Shown here piece by piece: positions 2,954 to 34,986 of a DNA stretch of 64,000 bases (positions are counted from its first letter, which is position 1; each line of letters opens with the position of its first letter). The DNA is from Selaginella tamariscina (taxonomy: Eukaryota; Streptophyta; Lycopodiopsida; Selaginellales; Selaginellaceae). The stretch is from the NCBI GenBank assembly GCA_003024785.1, contig PUQB01000357.1, positions 143,782 to 207,781 of the forward strand, given 5' to 3'. Under the pieces are notes generated by a model. That model had not been told where the DNA came from and searched no databases. It worked only from the letters and a program-made list of their open reading frames with translations. The position numbers were made by a program, and so were the translations under genes.

Positions 2954-5341
2954 TCAGCCCTCAGCGCGGCGCTGTTCTAGTATTGAGAGAAGATTAAAAG
3001 CAGAACCCCCGAGATTAACTCCTCGCACAGTTCCCCGTGAGCAACCTTTATTCTATGGCATAGCAGCAAAATCGCGTCCCACAAAGCTGTCCGTCCCTGT
3101 AAAAGATATCATACATGCATGCACTCATATGCAAGGACAACTTACAATAGCATAATTAGATAGCGTACATCGCAAAACTGTGTGAGTGCATACTATCGAG
3201 CCGGCAGAAAATTATGTGTTATATTATATTGCTTGTAGGTGCCGCTACTTCTTATTCGCATAGACATTTACATAATGTATAGTAAATGCCGCAGACACAC
3301 ACGCACGGATACCTGAAGTGAGAACTGCAGCCGCTTATCCCAGTAGAGAGCAAATATTGGAGGGCTTTGCTTACCCACAGCCAAACACAAGCACCAGCAT
3401 GTAAAACCGGGGGAGCACCTAAACACCAGAATACATTTAAACACGGCTTCGATACACTAATATATATTAGATATATAGATATATATTGTTGTAGGCATAT
3501 GCATCTATTGTCAAAGTTATATAAACACACATATACCTGAGAGTACAGCGATGTATTTTTCAGGAAACCTTTCTTTCTGAGGAAGGTTGGCAATGAAAAG
3601 GGGATTATTCCCCGACTGTGTGCTGGGATGGGATATAGGATCAACGTGTAGCATCCACTGTGGGTGCTCAAGCAACGCACAAAACAGATAAACCAACAGA
3701 TGGGCATCTGTTGGCAGCTCCAATGTCCATCGCTTTGTTGTCTTATCATATACCTCGCCTGTTCCCGCAAACTCGTAGTTCCTGACACACGTACCTTCTG
3801 CCAACTCTATAAAAGAATAAACATCCGTTAAACCTACCTAATTATAATACATACAGCTCAAATTACACATATGATTGCATAAGCTTACCTCTTAAACGCT
3901 GCACAGTATAATCAGCTCTTACACTACTTTGTGGAAGTAGTCCCTTTACCCATTCACCTTAACAAGAGCATGTAACCTTTGATGCTCAGTAACAGCGTCC
4001 AGACATTCCTGCAGTGCAGGATTCACCTCTTGGTTCGGGATTCTAAGCCCAAAGATCGATGGTGCTGCACAGAATCAACGTTAGAAATATTAAAAAATGT
4101 TTTTTTGCATATGCCCAACGTATGTGTGTGTGTATGTGTGAAAATTATATAGACAAGTATGTATATATGTATGACGTATGTGTATATAGGTTTGTATTAC
4201 TCGAAGATGCATTCTTAGCATTGACGAGAAAAGCACGGAATTGATGAATAAGAGCGTCTTCGTCTGGAGCAAATGTGGTAAGCCATTCTTGTGAAGACCC
4301 CTCGACGGCTTGCGTCGGATGATTACGTTTACCACCTATAGGACTTATTACCAAAGAATATCCCAATTTTGCCGCCGTTTCCATCACCTATATATCCAGA
4401 TCACTAAACTGTTTCTGTCTGATGATAAACATGCCTATGTATGCGATACAATATACACATGTATACTAACAATTTTACACAATACATGGTATAATGCTTA
4501 CTTGAAACTTTGGGACTTACTAAGCAAGGAGTTAAGATGTGAATGTATATAAGTATGTACGCATCACCTGTAGATGACTTCTGTCGATTTTATGCAAAAG
4601 AGGGACGAGAAGAACGTCAGAAAACCACTGCCTAAGACCTGGGATCAAAGTATACCGAATCAATAATGTACTATAGCGTATTTATGTATGCTTGTGTGTC
4701 CGTGCGTGTATATAGAAGTATACCGCACACATAAATTAAAACATACCGTCTCTCCAGTGTTCAATATCTGGCCAGATTCCCAGCTTACGGAAACCATCGA
4801 TTCCCTGCTCTAAACTGAACGGAGCTGGAAGATCACCTTCTGCCTTCTTCGGAGAAACTCCTGACTTTTGACCACCTTATAAATACAGGCTTAAGTTTAG
4901 ATTACGTGTCTATGCATTACCAACGAGCTCGCCTATACACAAACACACACACAACACACCACTGGGAGACACCCTCAGAGCTCGAACAGGTGTATTTCCT
5001 GGAGAATGAGGAGTTGTAACATTTGGACTTGCTGCAGATGCAACTACACGTATTGGAGATGGTGAAATGGCTCCCTGGGGTGTTGTAGGCGGTTTTCCAG
5101 CAGATTCCGACATCTTGTGGTTGACCTTGTTATATTTAGCACATGATTAGTCATGCTAAACTCATGTCTTACTTACAAATACAAAGATGTCATTATCATT
5201 TTACTCACCTCTGAAAGGAAGTTCTCGAGTTGTTCCTGGTTATGAATTTCATCCCTCTTGAACTTGAACCCCCATTCGTGGTCTGGTGAAGAGCCCGTCA
5301 TGGGAGTGTGGGGAAACGTACTAACCTGAACAGGCAAGCAA

Positions 5342-13470: not shown

Positions 13471-14217
13471 GTAAGGGTCGTAGCTGGATATAGGGCATAA
13501 CTAGTGGTTAACAATCAACTTAACGTTGAAGACCAAATAGACAACTAAGATGCACAAACGAGAAGATTGTGCCGCTCCATTATGGTTTAGTAAGATAAAC
13601 AATGGACATGGCTAGATGCAAGTTGTAACTAAAATGGGCATGGCTATAGTCCCATTTCTTAATAATTAGCAATTTTAGCTATTTAATTAGCATTTTCTAA
13701 TATTAAAGGAATATTCTTTAGAATATATGTTTGAAAAGAGAATTTCTTTAGAATATTCTATTTTGTATTCTACCCTTTAATAAATTATAGCATTCATTGA
13801 ACAAAAATTAATAACATTATAAAAGTAGAATGTATTAAATTATATAATATATTGCCTAATATAACAATTAAGGAAGAGCATAAGAGGTACATTATATAAA
13901 TATTGATGTTGTTATTAAAATATTAATATTTAAATATAACATTATTAATTAAAAATTTGTAGTAGTAATAATATATATATAAAATCCTATAATAATATAG
14001 TCAATCTTCCATATCATTTTTTAAATTTATATAGTTAAGTATACAATTTGGTACTATTATTAAAGAGTTTATAATAATTATGAATATTAAATATATTATA
14101 TTTTATAATTTTGTAATTGCTTTAAGCTTCAGAAAACATACATTCCCTTGCAGTTTTGTTAATCGTGATTTTATCAACGCTTCTTGACATCCACCCATAT
14201 CGAATGGATTTAACATT

Positions 14218-17200
14218 TTATAAACATGCTGGGTCTTTTTGATTGGGAGACCATGTTTTCTCTAGGCATCCATTATATCTTTCGCTCTCCTTCTCGTGTC
14301 GCCTTTTTTGTGGTTTGAACCATGCAACCTTAAACAATACTATTTTTTGTGATTACTTCAGGTGTGTCGATAATTTGACCCATCCAAATAGGCTGATTAT
14401 ATGACGCATCTGGAGTAATGAGAACCATCATTAGTTTTTGAAGATCCTTGGCAATCAAAGTATGCTTTAGGTTTTTGGTTCCTTTGTCCAACAAAGTGTG
14501 GGGTTTGCACTTCCACATCACTACTGGCTTCTATGTCGTCTGTGCTCAGTGATGTCATTTCAATCTCCTCTCGCCACCTTGTTTTAGGCCAAAAAGGGTG
14601 TTGCAATTCTGTACTTGTGACAGTAGGCCCTTCCAACTCTCGAACAACAGTCTCCCAATAGTTGACCACATGCTTATATAGTTCTGAGTAACCAGTTGCC
14701 TTATCAGAATTCTTTTGGCATCGATTTTTGAACCCATGCCACATATTTTTTGATGCCATCAATAATAACCTCTTGTTCCTTGAGCTGGGCACTCAATGGA
14801 ATAGGGTCTGGTTGTCCTTCTGGGAGAAGTGGCTTTCCATCTCCACTTTTGAAGAGCATTAAGCCCTCTTTCGGTAACCACTCCTGCTCTGATGGCCGTA
14901 ACTTGTACTGCATAATAGGTATACCATCTCGTATGGAGAAAAAGAATTGTAGCGGCACAAGGTGACCAACTAAAGAATCACTCCCTTCTTTTATATACTC
15001 CTTGAGAAATTTTTTGAAGTCTGGCACCTCAGTCACAAGCAAAGCACAACTTTTTTTGGAGATGCAATTTTCAAAAAGATTCATCATATGCGGTAAGGTA
15101 AGTGCACTTGTCCTTTTTGTAGAGTTGGAGACCTTGCTGAAGAACGCATCAATATCTTCATGAGTGTGACCAACCATAAGGAAACTGAGCGTGATTGTTT
15201 CAAACACACCTTTGGCAACAAGCATTGACAAGTATGCTAGCACATATCTAGAAAATAAAAGTAAGTATGAGCTTGAGAAACCCTTAAGTAAAATGATTTA
15301 CCTATTTTTGTTCTCGCCTGCACAATTATCCATCTGTAAAAGCAAATGACGAGGAAGCTTATTTGATGTTGAGGACACATGTACACTATTTGAGCTAGAT
15401 CCCTCCACTGAACCTGAACTCTCAACAGGGCCATCTGTTTTTTGTGCAGGTTGCTGACAATGCCTCTCATATTCCCAAGTAGCCTCAAGTGCAGACGTGT
15501 TCATGAGAGCATTATGTAAAGGTTGAAGGTGTTGTTTCTTCACTTTGAGATCACTGATAGGACTTGTCTGTGAGTGGGCTTCAAGGTTTCTGAAACACAT
15601 GGCTAACGACCCAATAGTGAAATTGGAGTCGCTAGACCAATGTGGAAGTGAAAAGTGTCCATATGACTCACAACCGTGTCCATGTGTTAGCACACCTGTC
15701 AATGAAATCGGAAGTTTCATGACATTTCCAAGGCACTTTGGTGTTGCAAAGAGCTTTGGAATGCTGGTCTTTGAATGATCCATCTTGTCATGGATCAAGC
15801 ACAGGTACTCTGATGGGCGTGACACAGAAAGCATGCGGTGTGCATAGTACTGAGACCGGCAAGTTTGTTGTGCAATCATGTGGGCCTCCATCTTCTTTTG
15901 AATGGTAGTGATCTCCACCAAGGTTTTTGCACAAGCCTCTGCAGCCTTCAATGATGTACAAGTGTCACACTTAGAAAAGCTAGAGTGTTTTGCAATCTCC
16001 ACATCCTTAAAATGAGTATTCCATATGTTGTTGAAGGTACCAGTGCAGATTGCTTGGAGCCCCATCAAACTGAGGCACTTGTTCACATGTTCACACAGTT
16101 TCAATTGAGTGTAGATTGAAGGTAAAACCTTGAGATTTTCCCTGACCCCTGCATTTGTGGTTCGGCATTTGTGAGGCATCCTGTCTGCATTTGCTTCCAC
16201 AAAAGCCTTGAGTATCTCTATGGCTGCCATGATGTGAGAGCGGGTTTTGACCAAGCAGTGTTCCCATGAACTGAGGTTCGCGCTCCATCTAGCCACTCAT
16301 CCCTCCGACGGTAGAACGTGGTCTTTGGGATCCCGTATATACTGTACCAAGCTTTGAAGCAGATGGCCACCTTATTAAATACCATGGATGTACTCTGATA
16401 ACCTGTGTCCGAGGCCATTCCATCAATACACCCAGTTAGTGCAGCATATACAAACTCATGCCTTTGCTTTTGGGTGAGCATACGAAAGACATGTCTACAT
16501 TGGGTAATTTCATTCCGGTCTGCCATCTGACAACACTTCTTCTTGCAACAGTCAATCGTGGAAATGCTCGTAACACTTTCGGAAGATGTAGGATCCATCT
16601 TTACCCTCTTGCTGAAACTTGCAGGGGAAGATCTACAACCCATGAATCGCCTTTTTCTTACAATAGGACCAATGCAAGGAACCTCTTCAAATATGAGTTG
16701 TTCTTCCGGGTTGTTATTATTGAAATCCAACCCAGAATATGTTGAACCATCTTGCCGTCTTAATTCAGATGTTCGCCACCTCACGAGGGATCCAGGATAC
16801 AATGTGCCATTAGGTGAAACCTCTGTCACAACTACACCCACGAAGTCGGACCCTAGTTTCTCTTCTGACACTGCTTCCATTGGATTTATAGCTGTGATGA
16901 TGCCTCTTCCGACTTCAATCTCACGAAGAAAGAGAATCACCTCATCCACAGCAGGCAAGCCATCATCTGGTAAACTCGTGCTACTATTTGTTTGTGACTC
17001 TGCATATTCTGTGTCAGCCTTGACTTCATCCAAATTCCACAATACAGGAGAACCCTCCTCAAATTCCATTCCCAGAACCTCAACATGCTTGTAAATGGTG
17101 TTCACCCATACGTACACACAAGATCCTTGGGCAATATTGTGACATGATGCATTATTATCTCGAACTTCCACAGTTCCAGTGCCAACTATCTCGTTGTTCC

Positions 17201-17234
17201 GAAGAAGACATACTTTATCTCCAGTATTAAACAT
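14218..17234 (-). CDS. DUF7869-type transposase-like protein, left-arm copy (frame-broken)
   Basis: The first coding ATG in this exon is 17234, just inside a tttatgtgcag acceptor, so an upstream non-coding exon is likely. Protein order: an N-terminal beta-rich part (NTGDKVCLLRNNEIVGTG), a zinc-like CCKKKCCQ, an HTH-like GIPKTTFYRRRDEW, HSSFSKCDTCTSLKAA, LIHDKMDHSKTSIPKL, LLLQMDNCAGENKNR, a 54-base intron (15248-15301), then FLMVGHTHEDIDAFFSKVSN. The spaced D...DN...HTHEDID residues are the signature of the DUF7869 family, which has an RNase H-like, transposase-type look. Breaks: a 1-base slip near 16275, one extra A in the run at 14713-14716, and a 2-base loss near 14449. The right-arm copy is intact at the last two, so at least some breaks are copy-specific errors or decay. 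The stop is at 14218. Confidence 0.7.
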
Positions 17235-17383
17235 ATTGTCCTGCACATAAATAATTGTATTATTTATGATATCTGTTTATGCAATATTTTAAGAAATCTG
17301 AATTACGGTTACTTAATAATATGCATATGCAATAATACATAATTATGTTTAGAGATAATATCTCATGTTTGATTAATACAACT

Positions 17384-17960
17384 GATGGGCGGGATTAATC
17401 CCGCCCACGATCCCTCCGACGAGAACGGTCGGCGGGATTAATCCCGCCGCCGACTCAACCCCTTCGGAGAGAGTCGGCGGGATTAATCCCGCCTTGGACT
17501 CCCTCCGACAAGGAAGAGCCGGCGGGATTAATCCCGCCGCCTCTTCCTCCTCGGGGGAGTCCGGCGGGATTAATCCCGCCCACAATTCTTACGACGGGGA
17601 ATGGGTGGCGGGATTAAACCCGCACATAACTCTCTCCAAAACTATGATTTCAAAGAGATCTCGGGATAAATCCTGTCCCCAAATCTTTAAAACAGGGAAG
17701 TGGTGGCGAGATTAATCCCGCCACCCCTTCCCTGCCTCCTAAAATGGTTGGCGGGATTAATCCCGCCGACAACTCTTTCTAATAAATTCTGGTAACTCTT
17801 CATCAGTTGAGAAGGTTATCGACGGGATTAATCCCGCCACTCTTTTTCAGTGGCGGAGAAGCATTGCCCGGAGATGGTGGCGGGATTAATCCCGCCACCT
17901 CTTCGAAGAGGCAAAAAGAAATGGCCGGATTAATCCCGCCGCCCCGGTTAACCTAGAATA
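17384..17960. repeat. Left array of the palindrome GGCGGGATTAATCCCGCC
   Basis: Roughly a dozen perfect or near-perfect copies of the 18-base palindrome lie 40-60 bases apart, with GC-rich, poorly conserved spacers. The array lies immediately upstream of the transposase-like gene. Translated frames here (GGINPAA, GLIPP repeats) are artefacts of the repeat, not proteins. Confidence 0.9.
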
Positions 17961-18479
17961 TTAAGTTAAAAGGATATTTAAACGGGATAAATCCCTAACG
18001 GAATATATTATAATCCTAATGCATTCCTAAACCCCTAAATTGTAATTTTAAGAGAGAATGTAAGAGAGTGAATCTTTATAAGTATTTTTAAATTTGTTTA
18101 TAATACTTACTTGTAAACAGCACTGAAGGCGCCGTGCTTTCCTATAAAGAATAGCACCCAATTTAATCTCGCCCTGAGATGATCACTATGAAGAAAAAAG
18201 AAGATCTAAAGAGTGAAAAATACAGAAATGAAGAAACCCTTGCCGGAGAAAGAACCAGATCTGAATTTGAGTGGGAAATTAAATGCATTTTCAAATTTAC
18301 ATGTCAGACCGACAATACATATGTCAGAAATTCAAATTTTTTAAAAAGAACAGAAAATAAAATTTAAGATGAGTTGACACAAATATCCGACACTCTGACA
18401 TATATACTCTCCAGTTCCAATGAGTATTTTAAAATTGCATTTAATGTTATTCAAGTGATTCAAGCTGTTTAATATTACG

Positions 18480-19330
18480 AAATTTTAGACTATATTCTAC
18501 ATTCTTAGTATTCAAGTATATTTATATATATATATATATATATAATATATACTTATACAATAAATAAATTGATATATTATTATGTATCATTTAAAATATA
18601 TTCATAGTCTGTTTATTATTATTATTTTCTTAATTACTCGAGTATTTAGTTTTCATTTCCTAGTATCAATGGGATATTCTTTAATATTTTATTAATATTT
18701 GAAGAATATTCTAATATTAAACCTGATTATCATAATTAAATTAGTCTTGTTCTTAATTATTGCAGTAATTATTCTACATTTGTATATATTAATGGGATTT
18801 TCTCAATTAATTTGTTATTATTTCAAGAATATTCATGTGTTAAACCTTATTATCAATATTAAATTAATACACACTATGAACATATTTTAAATTATACATA
18901 ATAATACATCATTTTATCTAATATATAGTCATATATAGTTTTAATAATATATATATTAATATCATTTCCTTAATTACTTGAGTAATTAATCTTCTTTATA
19001 TTAATGGGATATTCTTTATTATTTTCTTATTATTCCAAGAATATTCCAATATTAAACATGATTATGATAATTAATTTAGTTAATTATTTGAGTACTTAAT
19101 TTACATTTGTATATATTAATGGGATTTTCTCAATTAATTTCTTATTATTTCAAGAATATTTCAATGTTAAACCTTTTTATCAATATTAAATTAATATATA
19201 TTATTAAAACTATATATGGCTATATATTAGATAAAATCATATATTATTATGTATAATTTAAAATATGTTCCTAGTGTGTTTATTAATATTATTTTCTTAA
19301 TTATTCGATGTTTGTTTTGCACACATATAT
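18480..19330. repeat. AT-rich tandem units in the left arm
   Basis: About three to four diverged copies of a unit of about 260 bases. Recurrent phrases are atatattaatgggat, ttcttattatttcaagaat, attaaacct.attatcaatatt and tatcatttaaaatat. The mirror copy occupies about 28,900-29,700 in the right arm, and a relative lies at 1-400. Confidence 0.7.
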
Positions 19331-19544
19331 AAACACAATCATAAATTTACACACGCATTACAAGAACTTACAAAAACACATATGCACACACATGCACAAC
19401 CCTAAACCAAACTGAAGAAATATGTTGCTTCTTTATTGAAAACATCATGTTCAACGCATGTATGATATATGTACTCAATCTGTGTGACTGTATGTAACAC
19501 ATTGAATTTACATGTGTAATATTTATATTAAGCTTGTTGGGAGC

Positions 19545-19574
19545 AAACCCTAAACCCTAAACCCTAAACCCTAA
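19545..19574. repeat. Interstitial telomere-type repeat (left arm)
   Basis: Four consecutive CCCTAAA units, the plant telomere sequence read on its C-rich strand. The right arm has the counterpart at 28356-28371 in shorter form. Confidence 0.85.
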
Positions 19575-19880
19575 TATGTAACACAATGAATTTACTCATG
19601 TAATATGTATGTATGTCTGTGTGTATACACGTGTGCATGTATATATGTGTACTTTCTGTCTTCTCTCATACATACACCATGCATGATCCATGTTAATATG
19701 TACTGTCTCTCTTCTCTCAAACATATACACCATGCATGATCTATAATATGTACTCGGTCTCTCTAATATTATGTACTAATATGTGTGTATGTCTGTGTGT
19801 ATACACGTGTGTATGTATATATTATGTGTATTAATATATGCAATGTGTATGTATGTATTGATACACATGAAACTTTAACA

Positions 19881-20160
19881 CTCTCATGGACACACACATG
19901 TTAAATCCCTGCATGATTTATATTTTTGAGGTGTATGTGATACACCCACGCACACGCACGCGCTAATAATATAATGAAAGAATATTCGTTTAGGGCGAAT
20001 CTATATTTTATTCTTTTTAGGGTTTAAGTATATTCTCAGAAGGAATATTCTATTAGGGTTAATATATATATTTAATTCCTTTAGGGTTTAGGTATATTCT
20101 TAGGGTTTCAAGAGCGGCGGCTGTGAAATCGGCGGCGGCGGCTGTGCACACAGGTGAGAT
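19881..20160. other. Possible promoter and leader of the central genes
   Basis: This contains several TTTAGGGTTTA motifs, then a short GC-rich block ending cggcggctgtgcacacag before gtgag, which looks like a non-coding first exon and a donor site. Similar motifs stand before host genes in this window. It could be the 5' leader of the ParB/methyltransferase-like gene, but the distance (over 3 kb) makes this speculative. Confidence 0.25.
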
Positions 20161-20161
20161 C

Positions 20162-20192
<31 letters not shown>

Positions 20193-20462
20193 ATATGTAT
20201 AGGAGTGTGCGTATAAATTTATTTATTAGTTTTATCTCTCGCACACACACGCACACTCCTGTGTATGTATATGTGTGTGTGGGTGTGTGTTTGTTTATCT
20301 GTATGATTTTATTTGTTTCGCTCACACACGCATACACACGATATACATATACACATATATATATATACCTATATACATATATACATACATATATTATGTG
20401 TACCAGTATCTGTAAATTTTTTTTTATTGATCTATCTCTCCCACACACACGCACACTGCTTT

Positions 20463-20494
<32 letters not shown>

Positions 20495-21190
20495 TATATT
20501 ATATAATCAACATATTAACACAATAGTATACAACACTAGTTTATATATATGCTTATATATTCATATGGGTTATATATCTATATACACAACATATATATAT
20601 GTGTGTGTTTATCTGTATAATTTATTTATTTATTAGTTTTATCTCTCGCACACACACGCACACTCCTGTGTATGTATATGTGTGTGTGTGTGTTTGTTTA
20701 TCTGTATGATTTTATTTGTTTCGCTCACACACGCATACACACAATATACATATACAATATATATATACCTATATACATATATACATACATACAACACTAG
20801 TTTATATATATGCTTATATATTCACAGACTCTCTCTTTCTCTATAGATTATATATCTATATACACACATATATATGTGTGTGTTTATCTGTATAATTTTA
20901 TTTATTTATTAGTTTTATCTTTCGCACACACACGCACACTCCTGTGTATATATATGTGTGTGTGTGTGTTTGTTTATCTGTATGATTTTATTTGTTTCGC
21001 TCACACGCATACACACGATATACATATACACACATATATATACCTATGTACACACATATATTAGGTGTACCAGTACTGTATAATTTTATTTATTTATCTA
21101 TCTCTTGCACACACACGTACACTCCTATACATACATACATACATACATATATATATATATATACACACACACATATATATATGTGTGTTT
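20160..21190. repeat. (GT)n/(AC)n/(AT)n-rich tandem block
   Basis: Three copies of a microsatellite-rich unit begin at about 20241, 20648 and 20923, recognisable by gcacacacacgcacactcct followed later by ctgtatgattttatttgttt. Frames through it code only for low-complexity Thr/His/Tyr/Cys/Val strings. Confidence 0.8.
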
Positions 21191-21207
21191 TTTATCTCGC
21201 TAAGCCC

Positions 21208-23040
21208 TCGAGCGGCGGGATTAATCCCGCCGCTATAGGTTTATAGCCTCGGCGGGAATCCCGCCGCTATATGGTTGGGGCCATGGCGGGATTAATCCCG
21301 CCGCCGAGGCCCTCACGCAGGTTATGGGCGGCGGGATTAATCCCGCCGCTCTACGACAAACCGAAGAGCGGCGGGATTCATCCGCCGCCCATAACCTGCG
21401 TGAGGGGCCTCGGCGGCGGGATTAATCCCGCCGCTCACCCATGCCCTGCGCGGAATGCGGCGGGATTTATCTCCTGGCAATGGCCTGTGTGAAGGTTCTA
21501 ATGGGCGGATTAATCCGCCGGATTCCGCGCAGGGCATTTACAGGGGATGGGCGCGGGATTAATCCGCCGCCGAGGCCCCTCACGCAGGCCATGGGCGGCG
21601 GGATTAATCCCGCCGCCAGGGAATTCACGCAGGACATGAACGGGGGATTAATCCGGCCCCACGCTCATGCCCTTCGCGGAGGGCGGCGGGATTAATCCCG
21701 CCGCTCAGGCACTTCCGCAGGATATAAGCGGCGGGATTAATCCCGCCCCCACCCATCCCTGTTCAAAAATGCCGCAGCCAATATATATGTGTGAGCGCAT
21801 GATTTACGAGAGGGCGGCGGGATTAGCCTCCGAACCTTCATTACCCGGTGGCGAGATTAATCTTCCGAACCTTCATTACCCCATTGGTATGTTGAATCAA
21901 TCCCGACTAACTCTGTCTGAGACGGAGAAGGTTTACAAAATACCAATGGAGGGAACTGAGAAGGTGGTGGGATTAATTTCACCATCCTTACATGGTGGGC
22001 GGGAATTAATCCGCCGCGTACGCATGCCCTGCGCGGAAATCGGGCGGGATTTATCCGCCGCCATTGGCCTGCCTGAAGGGCCTAGGGCGGGATTAATCCC
22101 GCAAGATTTCGCACAGGGCATTGGCGTTCGGCGGGATTAATCCCGCCGACTAAGGCCCGAGTGAAGGGCCTAGGAGGCGGGATTAATCCCGCCGGACGCC
22201 AATTCCCTGCTCGGAATCGGGCGGGATTAATCCCGCCGCCATTGGCCTGTCTGAAGTGCCTAGGCGGGGGATTAATCCCCCGATTCCGAGCAGGGAATTG
22301 GCGTCCGGCGGGATTAATCCCGCCGCATAGGGACCGAGTGAAGGCCTGGGCGGCGTGATTAATCCCGCCGAGTCTTCAATGCCTGTTGGAGGAATGAATC
22401 CCGCCACCCTTCCTTTGTTTTCTCCATTGGTGAGTCGGACCAATCCCAAACGTTTCTGTCTGAGACGTAGAAGGTTTTCAACATACCAATGGAGAGAATT
22501 GGGAAGAGTGGGGAAATTCATTTAACCATCACTTACATGGTGGGCGAGATTAATCCCGCCTCCTTTCTGGAGTCACTGAAGGGGTGTGAGAAATAAATCG
22601 CGCAGGGAATTGGCGTCCGGCGGGATTAATCCCGCCGCATAGGGATCGAGTGAAGGCCCTGGGCGGCGGGATTAATCCCGCCGAGTCTTCAATGCCTGTT
22701 GGAAATGAATCTCCGCCACCCTTCCCTTTTTCTCCATTGGTGAGTGGACCAATCCCAAACGTTTCTGTCTAAGACGTAGAAGGTTTACAACATACCAATG
22801 GAGGGGACTGGGAAGGGTGGCGAGATTCATTTAACCATCCCTTACATGGTGGGCGAGATTAATCCCGCCTCCTTTCTGGAGTCACTGAAGGGGTGTGAGA
22901 AATAAATCCTGCCCAGTTCTCTCTGAGACCGAGAAGGGTGGCAAGATTAATTCCGCACTCCCGTTCAAGGCCTCCAGAAAGGTGGCGAGATTAATCCCGC
23001 CCACTCTTTCAGGAGGCATTGAAGGGGTGGCGAGATTAAT
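21208..23040. repeat. Central array of the palindrome GGCGGGATTAATCCCGCC
   Basis: The largest of the three arrays, with roughly 30 or more perfect or degenerate copies. Copies become less perfect to the right (gcgagattaatcccgcc variants). Some spacers are themselves arranged as long inverted repeats (21300-21420, 22194-22306). A 312-base unit is duplicated in tandem (22291-22602 and 22603 to about 22915). Confidence 0.9.
22291..22915. repeat. 312-base tandem duplication inside the central array
   Basis: Both halves begin cagggaattggcgtccggcg and share ctccattggtgagt, gacgtagaaggttt, catttaaccatc and aaggggtgtgagaaataaat, with a few substitutions and small indels. The spacer part also has inward-facing ccattggt / accaatgg pairs. 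Confidence 0.8.
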
Positions 23041-23149
23041 TTCCATGTGAATATATATGTGTATTAGTATATATAAGTTGCATATCTCATTTTATTTACT
23101 TTTATCATCTTATCATAATATTTCGAGTAAAAGCTAGGAATCTATGTAA

Positions 23150-23236
23150 AACTGTCCAGAGCTCACATTTGTGGTGGTTCTAAAACGAAATGTTATCTTT
23201 CTTTTGCACTAACACAAATGTGAGCTTCGGACAGTT
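23150..23236. repeat. 87-base hairpin with 24-base arms
   Basis: The left arm AACTGTCCAGAGCTCACATT continues TGTG. The right arm is its reverse complement with only two mismatches. A loop of about 39 bases separates them. It could be a tiny MITE-like insertion or a small-RNA precursor; no clear target-site duplication is visible. Confidence 0.7.
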
Positions 23237-23378
23237 AATTACGTCTACTTCTCTCTGTGTATTATTTTTGTATATTCGGGTTTATACAAGTGTGTGTGCG
23301 TTTTTATATAATTTATATTTATAGTGTATTATTTTGCAGAAGGACGATTTGATCAAACAAGGAGATCGAGTCATTAGT

Positions 23379-26300
23379 ATGGAGTCGTCGTCAAATTCTG
23401 GGTAAGAATTAAAATAAAATCTGTTATACTCGGATACTTGAACTAATCATTTTTGTATTCAGATGTGGAATTGAGTGACATTAAAGACAAGAGCAGGAGA
23501 AGAGATGGGCAGGGGGATTCTGGAATCAACTTGGCCATATTTTAAGATAAATGGGAAGCGCATTGGAGCAACCATGGTTGCTGTCAAATTAACCTCTGTC
23601 ACATCTCATGGACAAGCAAAACAATGGAAAGTAGATTCGCTAGTCAAGCACCCGAAAGCAGGCTGCGAACCCAGATTGGACGATGCTCGACAGATATGCC
23701 TTGTTCCATCCAATGTCACGTTCTCGGATCCAGAGGTCGTCAGTTACAACATTAATCTCGGGTGGTTTTGTCGACTTGTGGATAATGACGTTCACGTGTT
23801 CACTAATGATGTTGACCTTGGAGTTCTTCTTCAACTCAACGAAAGCCCATCTATGGAGGGGATCCATCTGGATGTCTACTTCGAAGATCTTCAGACTCAT
23901 CGAGTAGGTGTATTGTCAGGAGATATTGCTTCACAATACAGAAAATCAGCAAGTGGAGCAATCTTCCCTCTTCACATTGAAGAAGAACACAGCGACATCA
24001 TAAGGGAGATTGAGAAGGTGGCTCGGTCTCAGGTTCTCTACAGATCACGTTCAATTTGCTTAGGAAGCTTCGGGAGCTGGAGGAGTGTGCCGAGAACACT
24101 AGAACAGCTGCAGTCGGGGATCACACATGTTGATTCGGATCGCAAAAGAAAATCATCAATCGTTTTGTCAGCTGCACCTGTGGCATCTCATGCTGCAATA
24201 AGTCACAAGGAAATGATGTTGGATGATAAGATTTATCCTTGTAGGGTTAAATATTGCAGCGTCAACCCAAACTTCAATTACAGGCCACTCAACCAGGAAC
24301 GTGTAGCTGAGCTCATGGAGAAGATGAAGGACGACAATTCTTATACCGTTCCACATAATGCTGTTTTGTGTCCATACTATGAAAGAAGGAAGGGTGCTGA
24401 CAAAGTCTGGATCACAACACCAGAACAACTCATGAAGATTCAGACGGAGAATAAAAGATCTATCAAGTACTACATCATTAGTGGCCAGCACACAATAACG
24501 GCAGCCCAACGACTTCTCGATGAACACAACAAAGGAACGATGGCAACAAAACTTTCCGAGCATACCCGTGAGAAGCTGACAAAAAGATCGGCGTTTTTAG
24601 CTAAGCCGAATCTCACAATCGAGCAGTACCATAAGTTATCGGCGGAATGGGACGCTGCCGACACCAACCACTACAACAGCAAAATATGGGAGAAGTTTAA
24701 ACACACGCGAGCCGTGTGGGAATCTCTTCAGCGACCACAAAGAGCTACCGCAGGGAATACACAATCTGCGGAATACCGGGTAAGCAAATTGTTTGGGCGG
24801 GATTTATCTCGCCGGTATATTAATCTGTCTTTTTCCTCAGAGAGTTGAAGAAATTGCAGCAGTTGATTTTGCCCAGGTGGGCGGGAAGGAAACATCATTC
24901 TGATGATGTTGATTTCTTGCCCCGAAGATAGGATCTTTGCCAAATGGTTGGGGATTATGGAATCCTTTTCAAAAGGAACACTGAAGAAGAAGCAGACAAG
25001 TGAAGGGGAGCCCTCAGAAAAGTCTGCAAAGAAACCCAGTAAGACGCCGAAGGCTAAGTCTGTTCAATCTACAAAGGATGTAGACAACGATTTCAAGCTC
25101 ACATGGTTGAAGCCTTTAAATGGAACAACGATGGAGGAGATGGAAGTCTTGGCTGATTTGGTGATCGATGGCAAACTACAAATTAATAACAGCAGCCCAA
25201 CCTCTCCTTTTCATCTCAAGGCAATGGAGTTGAAGACGGTCAGGCATTTCAAGGAGTGGTTGGGAATACACTGCCACAAACTGGGTTGGACCTCGACTTC
25301 AACATATGAAGAGGTTAGCAAATATTTGCATGTGACGAACGATGATATGCTTGTCGAATGGGTGAACCAATCGGAAGATCTAGGCAAGAATCTATTGCAC
25401 GCCAACGCCAAAAAGGAGAACATTGGGATGACGCCTTCTCTTATGGCAGTCCTTCAGCAGCGGAGAACCGAATTGAACCTTATAAAGGAGGATGCTACGA
25501 ATCACGACAAGCCCTACAGATGTTTGTTGTTAGATTCGGAGACTTTATGGGGTAACATCACTGCTTGTAGGAAACCGTTTCAATTGTTCGTGATGGATCG
25601 GCGGGTGTCAAAAAATCTTTCGACAGATAGGGCACTAGAGGATCTGGTGGAGAAACTTAGCCGTGCAAGCATATACATAGAAGGTATTTATTATTGAATT
25701 CATGCTTGCGCTCTTCACTGATACCTACTTTTTCAGGTATTTATTTCTTGATTCTTGCTCATGTCACCGATACTTTTGCCTTCGCCTTCGCCAAGAAGAA
25801 TAGACATCGTTGGACAGGATTTTATATGAACGATGCTAATCCCAAGTGCATTGATACTGTTGTTCACTTGGTTGTTAGGAATGCGCCAAACAATTTCAAG
25901 CTTCCAAATGACTGGCCAGGCATCTGTTTGCACTCCAACGGCCCTGAACCTCCATCCGATACACCGATAGGTATGAGTGACGTATTCGGCAATGTACGTT
26001 ATCCAAACATTACAAGTCAAGCGGCACGGAGCATCGTCAACTTGATCAGGGGTCCTCACAGTGATGCGTGGGTTTTTGACTACTGCACTAGGGGGTCCGT
26101 CTTGAAGGAGTGTTACCTTCGGCATACATGTGTGTTTGCCGTTGAGAAGGATAAGACCATGGTTGAGGACCTGAACAAGTGGATAGATTGGGTCTCAACT
26201 GAGTACCCCAACGAATCCATAAAGGCGTATTTGAGAAAGTTCCCTCCAGATAAGTGCGATAGCTCTGAAGGTGAATCTGGTTCAATCTCGGAGTCTGAGA

Positions 26301-26482
26301 ACGAACATCAATCAGATATTAGACCGGAAGTTATCTCGAGGAGTACAGAACATTCGCACACTCCAGGACCCATGGAAACATCAATAGAAGATGCAGAAGA
26401 TCTTGAACCATCTCACAAGCGGCTTAGACCTTCTTCGCCTCATTCAGAAGGTAATAGCGAAGAAGAATTGATAATGAATTGA
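23379..26482 (+). CDS. ParB-fold plus DNA-methyltransferase-like protein
   Basis: The main frame is 23475-24779; small introns follow at 24780-24840 and 25684-25736. The first half of about 200 residues is unrecognised. Then comes a ParB/sulfiredoxin-like core: YRPLNQERVAELMEKMKDDN, PHNAVLCPY and YYIISGQHTITAAQRLL. The C-terminal half has the order of a beta-class DNA methyltransferase: LLLDSETLWGN where a DPPY/DPPW motif would stand, then RYPNITSQAARSIVNLIRGP and a motif-I-like AWVFDYCTRGSVLKECYL with VFAVEKDK. The degenerate motif IV suggests weak or lost catalysis. An acidic Ser/Glu tail ends it. One missing G at 24883-24885 breaks the frame before EGNIILMML. The start is unresolved: ATG 23379 (MESSSNS) joins by the 23402-23462 intron only if a further indel is assumed. 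Similar two-domain proteins occur in bacteria and phages; the role here is inferred. Confidence 0.6.
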
Positions 26483-26593
26483 TAGAGTGATGAATAGTTG
26501 TAAATGAGTGTAACATAAGGCATTTTTGTATATTTCTTTTATATTTGTACAGAAAATAAATTCTCAAGGATTAATGAAGCTTTTAGTTCAAAC

Positions 26594-27926
26594 ATGGGTC
26601 ACACATTAACAAGGTAAATAATATACCTTGATAATTTTAAGGTCAGCTAATTATCATTTTGCAGATGTAATGAAATAATTGAGAACATGGATTTTCAGCA
26701 TTGCCATGAGGTAAGAGAGGGGTTTGGCGACAATTTCTTGTGCCACATGTCAGAATGACAGAGTTCATGCAGGAAATGGATAATAATGCAGCTCAAAACA
26801 TCGTTACCATGGGGGCCACTTCAGTTTTTGCATCATCATTTTTATTGGCTTCAGTTCCGAAATCAATTTCTTCAGCGCATGCAATATCTGAATCTTGTAA
26901 GGATGATGTACAATTAAATGATGAAGGGATAGGCAACGAATAGTGGCAACGGATAAATGTGAAAGGGAGCAAACAAGTGATTTGCAAAGTATTCAAGAGG
27001 CAACGCTATCTCATGTTACTCATGGCCATATTGTGTTGTTGGATGTCAATGGTGTTCTGCTTCATCGACAAAGGCCCGATAGAAAAACAGAAATCAAACA
27101 AGGAGATTTCATTCCTTGTCATGGTAAATTTCGATATGATATTATTTTTCGTCCAGGGTTGGATCGTCTCTTTCAAAAGCTTAAGGAGATGGGTGCGCTT
27201 GTGGGGATTTGGTCATGCATGCAGATTCATAACTTAACACCGCTGTTGAGTTTACTTAAGAAACATTGTAGTGTTGCAGAAGAGGTGATTCGTAAAGATT
27301 GGATTTTTGACCAGCGAATGTGTCATAAACCTCTCGAATTTCACAATATAAGAAAGGAAAGCAAGCCATACTTCTTCAAGAATGAAAGAATAATTGGGAC
27401 TCATGGGGAGATCAGTCGCTTAAGGATAACGAAGAATGCACATATCTTAGTAGTAGACGACTCTCCTCAGAAGGCTATGCTCAACCAAAACATTGCTTGT
27501 ATTCATCCAATCACTTTCGATCCATATTCTGATACCGATATCATGGATGAGCTAGTGAACTACTTGGATACGTGCCTCAGAAAGAAGAATCTCGAAAATT
27601 TTTGTGAGCAGTATCCACCGTATCATACATTTCCTGAAGCTTTTCTTTCTCGTGATATTGAATTTTATAAAATGAAGGATAGCAACCGGGCGCTTTATAA
27701 TATTATTCTTAAGGAACGTCAGTTTTTAGATGAGCCTTTATGCAGACCTTCTCTTATCACATCTTATGTATTAACAAGGATGGCAACTCCCAATTGCATT
27801 CGTGAGAGTGTTAAGTGGTGGCAACAACATCAAGATATTGACCAAAATGATTTGATTAATCCGGAGAGTGATGATTTAGACAAAATGAAAAGATTTCTTT
27901 GTATGATAGAAAGAAAGTATTTATAA
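26594..27926 (+). CDS. HAD/FCP1-like phosphatase, element cargo
   Basis: The secure part is 26943-27926. It shows HAD motif I as HIVLLDVNGVLLHR (D-x-N-G, the variant common in plant FCP1-like proteins), FRPGLDRLFQKLKEMGALVG with IWSCM, and the late motif ILVVDDSPQKAML. This is the order of NLI-interacting/small-CTD-phosphatase-like proteins. The second motif-I Asp is Asn, so protein-phosphatase activity is uncertain. The extension to 26594 (MGHTLTRCNEIIENMDFQ) uses a 51-base intron (26614-26664) and needs slips near 26740 and 26938. In the latter, one more A would join GIGNE to IVATDKCE. The gene stands directly downstream of the ParB-like gene on the same strand, inside the unique centre of the element. 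Confidence 0.6.
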
Positions 27927-28355
27927 AAAATTAACATGTTGATAAGAAAATGATTTCATTTGTAATTATGTTTGATAGTATTTCTTCATTATTGTAAACT
28001 ATTTTTAGAATAATATGAATATTCTAAGATATTTTAGGAATATTCCTTACTAAGTAAGGTTATTGAAGGATTAATTAATTAATTAATTAATATTTAAGGC
28101 TTAATTACATATTAATTAAATGATTAATTAATAATTAAAACTTAAGTATTAATTAGTAATTTATTTTATATTCCCATTTTCACGTATCATGCACTTTAGT
28201 TACAACGTGCATATGGTGTTATGTATGTAAAGAAGAAGACAGTGTTAACAAATTAAATTCATACACATTGCATATATTTGTACATATATATACATACACA
28301 TGTGTATACACATAAACATACATACATATTACATGTGTAATTTAATGTGTTACAT

Positions 28356-28371
28356 AGGGTTTAGGGTTAGG
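28356..28371. repeat. Interstitial telomere-type motif (right arm)
   Basis: Reads AGGGTTTAGGGTTAGG, the G-rich strand of the plant telomere repeat, at the position mirrored by 19545-19574. Confidence 0.7.
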
Positions 28372-30239
28372 ATGGATCATGCATGGTGTATATGTATGAG
28401 CGAAGAGAGAGTGTTAAAAAATTAATTTTGTACGCATTGCATATATTAGTACACATATATACATACACATATTATACATATATAGTACATAATTATTACA
28501 CAGTACATATTATGGATCATGCATGTGTGTATGTATAAGAGAAGAGAGACAGGTTACATATTATGGATCATGATCATGCATGGTGTGTATGTATGAGAGA
28601 AGGGATTATGCATGGTGACACTGTGTATGTATGAGAAAAGAGATAAAGTGTTAACAAATTAAAATCGTACACATTGCATATATTAGTACACATATATACA
28701 TACACATGTATACACATAGACATACATATATATTACATGTGTAAATTCAATGTATTACATACACACAAACTAAGTACATATAGATCATACATGCGTTGAA
28801 CATGATGTTTTTCAATAAAGAAGCAACATATAATTTCTCAAGTTTGGTTTAGGGCAATGTGCATGTATGCATATGTGTCTCTGTAAGTGCTTCTAATGCG
28901 TGTGCACGTGTATATATAAATTTTAATTGTGTTATATATATGTGTGCAAAACAAACATCGAATAATTAAGAAAATAATATTAATAAACACACTATAAACA
29001 TATTTTAAATTATACATAATAATATATGATTGTATCTAATATATAGCCATATATAGTTTTAATAATATATATATTAATTTAATATTAATAATAAGGTTAA
29101 CACTAGAATATTCTTGAAATAATAAGAATTTAATTGAGAAAATCCCATTAATATATACAAATGTAGATCAAGTACTGAAATAATTAACTAAATTAATTAT
29201 GATAATCATGTTTAATATTGGAATATTCTTGGAATAATAAGAAAATAATAAAGAATATCCCATTAATATAAAGAAGATTAATTACTCATATTTTAAATTA
29301 TACATAATAATACATCATTTTATCTAATATATAATTGATAATAAGGTTTAACATAGGAATATTCTTGAAATAATAAGAAATTAATTGAGAAAAATCCCAT
29401 TAATATATACAAATGTAGAATATTACTGATATAGTTAAGAATAAGACTAATTTAATTTTGATAATCAGGTTTAATATTAGAATATTCTTTGAATATTTAA
29501 AAAAATAATAAAGAATATCCCATTAATAGTAGGAAATGTAAATTAATTACTCGAATAATTAAGAAAATAATAATAATAAACAGACATGACTATATTTTAA
29601 ATAATACATAATAATATATCAATTTATTTATTTTATAAGTATATATATATATAATATATTTAATAATATATACTGAAATATTCAGAATGTAGAATAATTA
29701 TAAAAATTTCGTAATATTAAATAGCTTGAATCATTTGAATAACATTAAATGCAATTTTAAAACACTCATTAGAATTGGAGAGTATATATGTCAGACTGTC
29801 GGTTATTTTTTTAACTCATCTTAAATTTTCTTTTCTGTTCTTTTCAAAAATTTCGAATTTCTGACATAAGTATTGTCAGTCTGACATGTTAAATTTGAAA
29901 ATACATTTAATTTCCATTCAATTCAGATCTGGTTCTTTCTGCGGCAAGAATTTCTTCATTTCCTTATTTTTCACTCTTCAGATTTTCTTTTTCTTTATTG
30001 TGATCAGTACAGGAGCGACATTAAATTGGGTGCGCTATTGTTTATAGAAAAACACGGCGCCTTCAGTGTTGTTTATAAGTAAGTATTATAAACAATTAGA
30101 TATAATTATAAAAATTCACTCTCTTACATTCTCTTTTAAATTTAGAATTTAGGGGTTTAGGAATGTATTAGGATTATAATATATTATGTTAGGGATTTAT
30201 CCTGTTTAAATATCTTCTAACTTAATATTCTCGGTTAGC

Positions 30240-30990
30240 TGGGGTGGCGGGATTAATTCGGCCATTTCTTTTTCGCCTCTTAGAAGAGGTGGCAGGATTA
30301 ATCCCGCCACCATCTCTTTGATAGTTATGGCAGAATTAATCTGGGCAATACTTCTTCGCTCTTAAAAAGAGCGGCGGGATTAATCCCGCCTATAACTCTT
30401 CAACTAATAAAGAGTTACCTGAATTTATTAGAAAGGGATTAGTCTCGCCAACCGTTTTAGGAGGCAGATAAGGGGTGGCGGGATTAATCTCGCCACCACT
30501 TCCCTGTTTTAAATATTTATGGGCAGGATTTATCCTGAGATCTCTTTGAAATCATAGTTTCAGAGAGGTTATGAGCGAGATTAATCCCGCCGCCTATTCC
30601 CCGTCGTAAGAGTTGTGAGCGGGATTAATCCCGCCCCTTTCCTCGTCGGAGGGATTTGCGGCGGATTTGCCGATCTCACCGACGAGGAAGATTCTGGCGG
30701 CGGGTTAATCCCACCGGTACTTCCTCGTCGGAGGAGTCCGCGACGGGATTAATCATGCCGCCTCTCTATGATGAGGAAGTAGTACCGACAGCGGGATTAA
30801 TCCCGCCAATTCTTCCTCGCAGGAGGGAATCGGCAGCGAGATTAATCCGCTAACTCTCTCTGATGGGGTAGAGTCGACGGCGGGATTAATCCCGCCAACT
30901 CTCTCCGAAGGAGGTAGAGTCTATGGCGGGATTAATCCTGCCCATCGTTCCTTGTCGGAGGGAGCCGTTGGCAGGATTAATCCCGCCCAT
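30240..30990. repeat. Right array of the palindrome GGCGGGATTAATCCCGCC
   Basis: About fifteen copies, many degenerate (ggcaggattaatcccgcc, gcgagattaatcccgcc, gacgggattaatcatgcc), mirroring the left array at 17384-17960. Copies here are more decayed than those in the left arm. Confidence 0.85.
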
Positions 30991-31070
30991 CAATTGTATT
31001 AATAAAGCATGAGATATTTTTTTATATATAATTATTATTATTACAATGCTTATTATTAAGCAACCGCAGT

Positions 31071-31590
31071 TATGATTTCTTAGAAATATTGCATAAACAG
31101 ATATCATAAATAACACAATTATTTATGTGCAGGACAATATGTATAATACTGGAGATAAAGTATGTCTTCTTTGGAACAACGAAATAGTTGGCACTGAAAT
31201 GTGAAAGTTCGAGATGATAATGCATCATGTTACAATATTCCCAAGGATCTTGTGGTGTACGTATGGGTGAGCACCATTTACAAGCATGTTGAGGTTCCGG
31301 GAATGGAATTTGAGGAGGGTTCTCCTGTATGATTTCTTAGAAATATTGCATAAACAGATATCATAAATAACACAATTATTTATGTGCAGAACAATATGTT
31401 ATAATACTGGAGATAAAGTATGTCTTCTTGGAACAACGAAATAGTTGGCACTGAAAATGTGAAAGTTCNNNNNNNNNNNNNNNNNNNNNNNNNNNNNNNN
31501 ATATTGCCAAGGATCTTGTGTGTACGTAGGGTGAACACCATTTTCAAGCATGTTGAGGTTCTGGGAATGGAATTTGAGGAGGGTTCTCCT
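31071..31590 (+). repeat. Tandem duplication of the transposase-gene 5' end, with a 32-N gap
   Basis: The stretch beginning tatgatttcttagaaatatt occurs at 31071 and again at 31329; the two copies cover the splice acceptor and the first coding bases. Ns fill 31469-31500 inside the second copy. The left arm has a single copy, so this is probably an unmerged contig overlap rather than biology. Confidence 0.75.
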
Positions 31591-34405
31591 GTATTATGTG
31601 AATTGGATGAAGTCAAGGCTGACACAAAGAATATGCAGAGTCACAAACAAATAGTAGCACGAGTTTTTACCAGATGATGGCTTGCCTGCCTGTGATGGAT
31701 GAGGTGATTCTCTTTCTTCATGAGATTGAAGTCGGAAGAGGCATCATCACAGCTATAAATCCAATGGAAGCAGTGTCAGAAGAGAAACTAGGGTCCGACT
31801 TCGTGGGTGTAGTTGTGACAGAGGTTTCACCTAATGGCACATTGTCCTGGATCCCTCGTGAGGTGGCGAACATCTGAATTAAGACGGCAAGATGGTTCAA
31901 CATATTCTGGGTTGGATTTCAATAATAACAACCCGGAAGAACAACTCATATTTGAAGAGGTTCCTTGCATTGGTCCTATTGTAAGAAAAAGGCGATTCAT
32001 GGGTTGTAGATCTTCCCCTGCAAGTTTCAGCAAGAGGGTAAGATGGATCCTACATCTTCCGAAAGTGTTACGAGCATTTCCACGATTGCTGCAAGAAGAA
32101 GTGTTGTCAGATGGCAGACCGGAATGAAATTACCCAATGTAGACATGTCTTTCGTATGCTCACCCAAAAGCAAAGGCATGAGTTTGTATATGCTGCACTA
32201 ACTGGGTGTATTGATGGAATGGCCTCGGACACAGGTTATCAGAGTACATCCATGGTATTTAATAAGGTGGCCATCTGCTTCAAAGCTTGGTACAGTATAT
32301 ACGGGATCCCAAAGACCACGTTCTACCGTCGGAGGGATGAGTGGCTAGATGGAGCGCGAACCTCAGTATGGGAACACTCGCTTGGTCAAAACCCGCTCTC
32401 ACATTGGCAGCCATAGAGATACTCAAGGCTTTTGTGGAAGCAAATGCAGACAGGATGCCTCACAAATGCCGAACCACAAATGCAGGGGTCAGGGAAAATC
32501 TCAAGGTTTTGCCTTCAATCTACACTCAATTGAACATGTGAACAAGTGCCTCAGTTTGATGGGGCTCCAAGCAATCTGCACTGGTACCTTCAACAACATA
32601 TGGAATACTCATTTTAAGGATGTGGAGATTGCAAAACACTCTAGCTTTTCCAAGTGTGACACTTGTACATCATTGAAGGCTGCAGAGGCTTGTGCAAAAA
32701 CCTTGGTGGAGATCACTGCCATTCAAAAAAGATGGAGGCCCACATGATTGCACAACAAACTTGCCGGTCTCAGTACTATGCACACCGCATGCTTTCTGTG
32801 TCACGCCCATCAGAGTACCTGTGCTTGATCCATGACAAGATGGATCATTCAAAGACCAGCATTCCAAAGCTCTTTGCAACACCAAAGTGCCTTGGAAATG
32901 TCATGAAACTTCCGATTTCATTGACAGGTGTGCTAACACATGGACACGGTTGTGAGTCATATGGACACTTTTCACTTCCACATTGGTCTAGCGACTCCAA
33001 TTTCACTATTGGGTCGTTGCCATGTGTTTCAGAAACCTTGAAGCCCACTCACAGACAAGTCCTATCAGTGATCTCAAAGTGAAGAAACAACACCTTCAAC
33101 CTTTACATAATGCTCTCATGAACACGTCTGCACTTGAGGCTACTTGGGAATATGAGAGGCATTGTCAGCCCTGCACAAAAAACAGATGGCCCTGTTGAGA
33201 GTTCAGGTTCAGTGGAGGGATCTAGCTCAAATAGTGTACATGTGTCCTCAACATCAAATAAGCTTCCTCGTCATTTGCTTTTACAGATGGATAATTGTGC
33301 AGGCGAGAACAAAAATAGGTAAATCATTTTACTTAAGGGTTTCTCAAGCTCATACTTACTTTTATTTTCTAGATATGTGCTAGCATACTTGTCAATGCTT
33401 GTTGCCAAAGGTGTGTTTGAAACAATCACGCTCAGTTTCCTTATGGTTGGTCACACTCATGAAGATATTGATGCGTTCTTCAGCAAGGTCTCCAACTCTA
33501 CAAAAAGGACAAGTGCACTTACCTTACCGCATATGATGAATCTTTTTGAAAATTGCATCTCCAAAAAAAGTTGTGCTTTGCTTGTGACTGAGGTGCCAGA
33601 CTTCAAAAAATTTCTCAAGGAGTATATAAAAGAAGGGAGTGATTCTTTAGTTGGTCACCTTGTGCCGCTACAATTCTTTTTCTCCATACGAGATGGTATA
33701 CCTATTATGCAGTACAAGTTACGGCCATCAGAGCAGGAGTGGTTACCGAAAGAGGGTTAATGCTCTTCAAAAGTGGAGAGATGGAAAGCCACTTCTCCCA
33801 GAAGGACAACCAGACCCTATTCCATTGAGTGCCCAGCTCAAGGAACAAGAGGTTATTATTGATGGCATCAAAAAATATGTGGCATGGGTTCAAAAATCGA
33901 TGCCAAAGAATTCTGATAAGGCAACTGGTTACTCAGAACTATATAAGCATGTGGTCACTATTGGGAGACTGTTGTTCGAGAGTTGGAAGGGCCTACTGTC
34001 ACAAGTACAGAATTGCAACACCCTTTTTGGCCTAAAACAAGGTGGCGAGAGGAGATTGAAATGACATCACTGAGCACAGACGACATAGAAGCCAGTAGTG
34101 ATGTGGAAGTGCAAACCCCACACTTTGTTGGACAAAGGAACCAAAAACCTAAAGCATACTTTGATTGCTGCAAGGATCTTCAAAAACTAATGATGGTTCT
34201 CATTACTCCAGATGCGTCATATAATCAGCCTATTTGGATGGGTCAAATTATCGACACACCTGAAGTAATCACAAAAAATAGTATTGTTAAGGTTGCATGG
34301 TTCAAACCACAAAAAAGGCGACACGAGAAGGAGAGCGAAAGATATAATGGATGCCTAGAGAAAACATGGTCTCCCAATCAAAAAGACCTGTTTTATAAAT
34401 GTTAA
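31139..34405 (+). CDS. DUF7869-type transposase-like protein, right-arm copy (frame-broken, gapped)
   Basis: Mirror of the left-arm gene: the same motifs (LIHDKMDHSKTSIPKL, QMDNCAGENKNR, GHTHEDIDAFFS) and an intron of the same 54-base length at 33319-33372. Here the run at 33905-33907 has three A and FDCCKDLQKLMMVL stays open at 34165, so the C-terminus reads through to DLFYKC and a stop at 34405. Damage includes the duplicated 5' end and N gap, shifts near 31855 and 32050, around 32370 and 32735, and one near 33755. Left and right copies are broken at different places, so a consensus of the two is largely open. Confidence 0.65.
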
Positions 34406-34986
34406 ATCCATTCGATATGGGTGGATGTCAAGAAGCGTTGATAAAGTCACGATTAACAAAACTGCAAGGGAATGTATGTTTTCTGAAGCTTAAAGCAATT
34501 ACAAAATTATAAAATATCATATATTTAATATTCATAATTATTATAAACTCTTTAATAATAGTACCAAATTGTTACTTAACTATATAAATTTAAAAAATGA
34601 TATGGAAGATTGACTATATTATTATAGGATTTTATATATATTATTATTACTACAAATTTTTAATTAATAATGTTATATTTAAATATTAATATTTTAATAA
34701 CAACATCAATATTTATATAATGTACCTCTTATGCTCTTCCTTAATTGTTATATTAGGCAATATATTATATAATTTAATACCTTCTACTTTTATAATGTTA
34801 TTAATTTTTTTCAATGAATGCTATAATTTATTAAAGGGTAGAATACAAAATAGAATATTCTAAAGAATATTCTCTTTTCAAACATATATTCTAAAGAATA
34901 TTCCTTTAATATTAGAAAATGCTAATTAAATAGCTAAAATTGCTAATTATTAGGAAATGGGACTATAGCCATGCCCATTTTAGTTA

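Follow-up and report, generated by a model that had tools for sequence, protein, structure and literature searches.

The 64,000-base window analysed here (36% GC), from the genome of the lycopod Selaginella tamariscina (contig PUQB01000357.1, positions 143,782 to 207,781 of the forward strand), contains a 21,357-bp unit at window positions 13628-34984. We interpret it, at a probability of roughly 0.6, as a non-viral, long-arm DNA transposon driven by a transposase of the DUF7869 family (PF25273), of a lineage that matches none of the named superfamilies compared here. The 21-kb candidate has an unusual architecture and, to judge from its sequence, most likely behaves like a terminal inverted repeat (TIR) transposon. 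An initial annotation had proposed a giant transposon type with an outward-facing transposase gene in each arm; the single bounded unit, the inverted ends, the outward-facing transposase-like genes and the cargo-bearing centre all stand, and the type itself, with the transposase identity argued from acidic motifs, is plausible, short of proof.

The unit is bounded by an exact inverted 30-mer which, with up to 3 mismatches allowed, has two matches in the window, namely the two element ends (0 expected), and which continues into 6-kb arms as a TIR should. The ends read ACTAAAATGG. The dinucleotide TA, also reported in the initial annotation, lies directly outside both 30-mers at shift 0 (2/2), but since TA accounts for 11.8% of the dinucleotides in the 2 kb on either side of the element, such flanks alone prove little. 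Duplications of 2 to 12 bases were looked for in the flanks, with the ends shifted by -6 to +6 bases. A shift by 2 bases (element 13630-34982) gives the flanks GTTGTAAC and GTTATAAC, an 8-mer with 7 of 8 positions alike, which makes the exact ends ambiguous; as GTTATAAC is self-complementary, this 8-mer can also be taken for a continuation of the inverted repeat, whose BLAST alignment runs outward to 13622/34990. Within the same range of shifts, neither a further flank match of 7-12 bases with one mismatch or none nor any 3-bp match was present. The target duplication would be either TA (2/2) or the imperfect 8-mer (7/8). A terminal hairpin is weak (z = -1.22).

Self-BLASTN of the window, from which the 80 longest matches were used, resolves the arms into inverted blocks (Table 1) and agrees with the earlier description of arms of more than 6 kb. 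The mirrored content described for them is likewise present, each arm holding a DUF7869 gene, a palindrome array, A+T-rich units and short telomere-type motifs, and the centre between them (about 8.6 kb) is indeed unique and carries two unrelated genes, an orphan and a NIF-phosphatase-like gene. In the end-to-end alignment of the arms, the outer 3.4 kb (13628-17030) differ by 15 substitutions and 24 insertions or deletions (indels), with a substitution identity of 99.55%; the next 310 bp inward are 93.1% identical, and the inner arms (17341-19530) show 224 substitutions and 36 indels (89.2% identity, i.e. 11% substitutions). The indel to substitution ratio differs strongly between outer and inner arms (24:15 vs 36:224; Fisher p=7e-10), and 18 of the 24 outer indels fall in the coding stretch and break the right-arm gene. 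Because a neutral pseudogene would be expected to accumulate mainly substitutions, the outer differences are read as mostly consensus errors superimposed on near-identity. The combination of near-identical outer and 11%-diverged inner arms would then reflect either recent conversion between the arms or a right outer arm assembled from the wrong copy.

The second of these possibilities leads to an alternative that we consider unlikely, a partial assembly artefact, in which the inner arms, 11% diverged, would be genuine, and the outer 3.4 kb on the right side would be left-arm sequence, or that of some other family copy, which was polished poorly or put in the wrong place and joined on at the 32-N gap. 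Such a history would account for the excess of indels over substitutions that disrupts the right-arm gene. The interval 31071-31500 is itself an undetected overlap at an assembly join: 31071-31210 recurs at 31328-31468 with 97% identity, a 140-bp local duplication beside the gap, and the gap and the duplication together keep a wrong-copy assembly in play. Against it, the drop in identity, near 17.03 kb in left coordinates, sits in contiguous sequence some 100 bp outside the gap rather than at the gap, and the two flanks are unrelated to each other. Moreover, the inversion is independent of the outer part, since the inner right arm is already an inverted homologue. The anatomy of the unit is real, save for this doubt on the right outer arm.

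PF25273 matches two exons of the left-arm gene (E=1.2e-12 and 2e-25; 48.3 and 89.9 bits, with a gathering cut-off of 26), which contains one short intron between its LQMDN and GHTHED exons, and at least one frame break. A search with residues 330-800 of the left-arm protein, in which 5564 candidates were scored, returned 124 relatives at E<=1e-3, the best with 52% identity; among the 120 matches listed are proteins of the moss and liverwort genera Physcomitrium and Riccia, of bivalves and of a sponge, which share with the arm gene both the domain and the motifs, the comparison being one of proteins. All 21 relatives selected for profile scanning match PF25273, and the relatives cluster in groups of up to 647 member sequences, a figure that may reflect sampling. 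In a tree of 51 relatives and the window protein, made by a quick method and carrying long-branch warnings, the window protein joins P0001 and P0002 (99, starred) and the 8 animal sequences stand apart as a set of their own. In the 93 relatives that were aligned out of the 120 listed, each of the two aspartates of IxDKMD is present in 88, that of LQxDN in 92 and the last one of GHTHEDID in all 93, with 41 residues separating the latter two. This conserved acidic pattern resembles a DDE/D catalytic core and suggests that the arm protein is a DDE/D transposase. The first exon of the left gene also has a sub-threshold match to TNP1/EN/SPM (PF03017; E=0.14, 12.5 bits against a cut-off of 21). In the scan of the 21 relatives at E<=0.1, the HTH_29 winged-helix family appeared in one (0.07) and an OTU domain in one, the rest being DUF7869 or chance-like; a search of PDB with the DUF7869 profile gave a best E of 0.9, which is not meaningful. 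The fused OTU protease domain belongs to a bivalve DUF7869 protein, P0087, and OTU fusion is mentioned for Helitrons too (PMC6431247).

A further component of the unit is a palindromic 18-mer, GGCGGGATTAATCCCGCC, which occurs 43 times when up to 3 mismatches are allowed, 22 of the sites being exact, and always within 17388-30987: the 43 sites lie inside the element and none in the 42.6 kb outside it (0 expected). A looser test, with a 12-base core and up to 2 mismatches, places 57 of 59 sites in the element and two outside, at 670 and 3601. Apart from a lone site at 24796, the palindromes form three arrays; the commonest spacing is 42-46 bp, and the distances among 42 sites best fit a 45-bp period (150 pairs) in a fit made without shuffle control. 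Every array is bracketed by a donor-like and an acceptor-like site ahead of an element gene, at 18110 to 17241 in the left arm, 30079 to 31132 in the right arm and 20154 to 23339 for cargo gene 1, and the donor and acceptor are kept between both arms. This placement suggests that the arrays are regulatory sites in a putative first intron or promoter. The interval 20154-23339 would be a very long, CA/GT-rich intron, and telo-box-like motifs are found just upstream of its donor.

Three contigs with DUF7869-like sequence (L002, L003 and L004) were available for comparison; all three are filed in bacterial metagenome-assembled genomes (MAGs), of which they are probably eukaryotic contaminants. L002, 4.3 kb long (1-4327) and assigned to a cyanobacterial MAG, has an intact DUF7869 open reading frame (ORF) of 947 amino acids at 595-3438, three full palindromes upstream of it with a sequence other than that of the window (0 expected), and 11 half-sites at up to one mismatch, of which none falls within the ORF and which occur to either side of it (0.24 expected); these chance values are optimistic, the motifs of L002 and L004 having been picked after the repeat lists were viewed. 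In L004, from a Bacteroidetes MAG, a weak DUF7869 match (51 residues, 43%, at 3268-3417) is followed some 1.6 kb downstream, where the contig ends, by two exact copies of an 89-bp repeat (4972-5149), in which palindromes start at 4989, 5034, 5078 and 5123, that is, 45, 44 and 45 bp apart; the motif is unlike that of the window, and the spacing is close to the 45-bp phasing seen there. From these observations a wider proposal can be put forward tentatively, at somewhat less than even odds: that eukaryotic DNA transposons with DUF7869, ranging from streptophytes to sponges and molluscs, constitute a superfamily as yet without a name, recognisable by palindrome arrays of about 45-bp period beside the transposase gene, and that some of its streptophyte members became giant elements in which the transposase gene is duplicated, each copy facing outward in one of two mirrored 6-kb arms, and cargo has been captured.

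A number of observations speak against these interpretations. The 64-kb window holds no second full copy, no empty site and no confirmed target duplication, both arm genes show frame breaks, and the right arm contains the gap and local duplication described above. No transposase profile scored above its cut-off in the left-arm exons or, at E<=0.1, in the 21 relatives. Positions 1-340 of the window, within which a family fragment is proposed below, are unlike the outer end of the element (163 of 200 shuffles as high). Of the parallel contigs, L003 (25% identity) has no such palindrome array; the array of L004 lies at the contig end, where an exact repeat can be an assembly effect; and the palindromes of the window occur only inward of the arm genes, whereas the half-sites of L002 flank its ORF on both sides.

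The relation between the arms and the centre bears on a further alternative. Both inner sets of A+T-rich units resemble the outer 150 bp of the element beyond all 200 shuffles, the left set by one point only, and both element flanks are at chance in the same comparison; the sequence that follows cargo gene 2 gives a borderline result, with 8 of 200 shuffles scoring as high. A composite structure, in which two DUF7869 elements of about 6 kb in opposite orientation trapped host genes in the manner of a bacterial composite transposon, so that only the outer ends matter now, would explain why an entire gene and the region upstream of it are present in each of the arms and why the cargo is unrelated. 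We consider it improbable. The terminal 30-mer is absent, at up to 3 mismatches, from the inner arm borders, which speaks against a pair of simple, adjacent elements, and there is no sharp inner border; the end-like inner units are oriented as the outer end is, and not inverted as a second end would be; and the central palindrome array matches those of the arms, so that the centre belongs with them.

At the window edge, positions 1-247 are 80-82% like the inner A+T-rich units and are cut by the edge; in these units the arms resemble each other (about 90%) more than they resemble this sequence. We take it as evidence of a fragment of a further family member, in which case the family would have at least one more member in the genome. 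Short telomere-type motifs follow this fragment at 554-685. A non-mobile host locus that underwent inverted duplication and carries domesticated DUF7869 genes would suit the apparent frame breaks in arm genes and cargo and the lack of a second full copy in the window, but it is very improbable given the exact matching ends with possible duplications, the family fragment and the large clusters of DUF7869 relatives, sampling permitting.

Under the transposon interpretation, the DUF7869 protein made from either arm would, as a DDE/D transposase, recognise the terminal sequence, possibly assisted by the A+T-rich end-like units, and cut and paste would shift the whole 21.4 kb. The palindrome arrays, placed immediately before each arm gene and cargo gene 1 or within the first intron of these genes, would most likely be sites for a dimeric DNA-binding protein, encoded by the element or by the host, that regulates these genes. 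The length of the arms may have arisen by duplication, in inverse orientation, of the gene plus its control region, and conversion between the arms may hold the outer 3.4 kb alike.

Among known systems, CACTA elements carry subterminal repeat arrays, and Mutator-like elements (MULEs) generate target duplications of about 9 bp (range 8-11 bp), a size that the 8-mer with one mismatch would approach if the element is taken as 13630-34982. No transposase profile of MULEs or of the KDZ group (Zisupton, Kyakuja) was found in the 21 relatives, nor one of Tc1/mariner or PHISTA, families with a TA target, which the flanks here would allow. No cysteine pair was present among the conserved columns examined with regard to family membership. 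The long TIRs of MULEs are said to hold transposase sites and promoters, with internal end copies in some, and are far shorter than the arms described here, tandem TIRs reaching more than 1 kb in total (PMC3310237). For KDZ elements, duplications of 7-8 bp are given (PMC12730594), and an imperfect 8-mer of this size is possible at the element flanks. The same paper assigns to CACTA/EnSpm (CMC) elements ends of the form 5'-CAC..GTG-3' and a 3-bp duplication (PMC12730594). In contrast to these, the unit has ACTAAAATGG ends, no 3-bp duplication, no tnp2 profile and a DUF7869 core, and no CACTA/EnSpm profile reaches the cut-off in it, the PF03017 match remaining far below. The En/Spm (CACTA) families of Chondrus crispus, enlarged to 16-20 kb, are similar to it as large algal DNA transposons with extra ORFs (PMC6431247). 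Teratorn, a fusion of piggyBac and a herpesvirus in medaka, is characterized by a size of 41-182 kb, a TTAA target, CCYT ends, internal TIRs and herpesvirus genes (PMC5601938, PMC6431247); the present unit differs in its ends, has no exact internal copy of them, and showed no recognisable viral gene among the ORFs put through a Pfam scan. Neither the TTAA target nor the CCYT ends of piggyBac and Teratorn were found at its borders. By transposase profile, the candidate falls outside the CACTA, Mutator, KDZ and TA-target families, and by ends and target outside CACTA and piggyBac.

If mobile, the element would add a transposase lineage that is without a name in the literature searched, one open-access library, in which no mention of DUF7869 or PF25273 was found. 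It would also indicate that a plant-lineage DNA transposon can bear two transposase genes in mirrored arms together with whole cargo genes, and, with palindromes in phased arrays at three of its genes, it would offer a ready-made system for studies of transposon self-control.

Table 1. Features of the 21.4-kb unit, in coordinates of the 64,000-base window.
Feature	Position	Strand	Remarks
Left terminal 30-mer (inverted end)	13628..13657	+	Exact inverted copy at 34955-34984; TA before; true end maybe 2 bases inward
Right terminal 30-mer (inverted end)	34955..34984	-	Exact copy of left; TA after
Left arm	13628..19810	+	About 6.2 kb; right-arm homology fades at about 19.5-19.8 kb
Right arm	28451..34984	-	About 6.5 kb, inverted; holds 32-N gap
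Arm block 1	13622-17137/34990-31501	inverted	98.0% (self-BLASTN)
Arm block 2	17042-17579/31330-30791	inverted	86.8% (self-BLASTN)
Arm block 3	17563-18869/30635-29321	inverted	86.7% (self-BLASTN)
Arm block 4	18979-19526/29288-28726	inverted	89.8% (self-BLASTN)
Arm block 5	19660-19810/28602-28451	inverted	80.7% (self-BLASTN)
Assembly gap, 32 N	31469-31500		In right arm, beside local duplication
Left-arm DUF7869 gene	14400..17234	-	Outward-facing; more than 900 amino acids in pieces; PF25273 on two exons; 3' end not fixed
Putative first intron of left gene	17241..18110	-	Contains left array; GTAAGT donor and GCAG acceptor, both kept in right arm
Right-arm DUF7869 gene copy	31133..34405	+	Outward-facing; many indels and N gap; limits from reading frames
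Left palindrome array	17388..17940		GGCGGGATTAATCCCGCC; 11/43 sites, mostly 42-45 bp apart
Central palindrome array	21214..23001		20/43 sites, upstream of cargo gene 1
Right palindrome array	30246..30987		11/43 sites
Left inner A+T-rich units	18480..19360	+	Like outer 150 bp, direct orientation; score 43, 0/200 shuffles as high (maximum 42)
Right inner A+T-rich units	28900..29700	-	Like outer end of same arm; score 51, 0/200 shuffles as high (maximum 43)
Cargo gene 1	23340..26482	+	Several exons or frames; ORFs; without detectable homologue
Cargo gene 2	26925..27926	+	NIF (HAD) phosphatase-like; PF03031 E=3e-12; 5' part may lie upstream

Both cargo genes show apparent frame changes, which may be introns, errors or decay. 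Cargo gene 1 had no significant relative in Pfam, PHROG, NCBIfam, PDB or the large databases (7999 and 572 candidates scored); by eye, its SGQHTITAAQR recalls ParB-like proteins and DAWVFDYCTRGS methyltransferases, likenesses that are our own impression and are supported by no tool. In cargo gene 2, motif I reads DVNG, and by the motif rule we presume its activity to be doubtful. No RNA family matched at the gathering score within 13000-35600.

An origin from a virus was considered and rejected, as a search of viral contigs returned no relative of either the arm gene or the large cargo gene 1 exon; the single viral contig that carries the palindrome (L001) shares, among the matches listed, just stretches of 20-28 bp with the window. 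A chromosome-end (telomere) reading was rejected as well, the only clean tandem CCCTAAA being three copies at 19548-19568, which we take to be promoter-type telo-box motifs. Outside the unit, two host-like exons point, together with the moss and liverwort relatives of the arm gene, to a streptophyte genome: the window contains a host-like exon of an RNA-dependent RNA polymerase of green plant type at 50271-50552 (PF05183, E=3.8e-14) and, at 63 kb, a host-like exon with a GEX2-type immunoglobulin domain.

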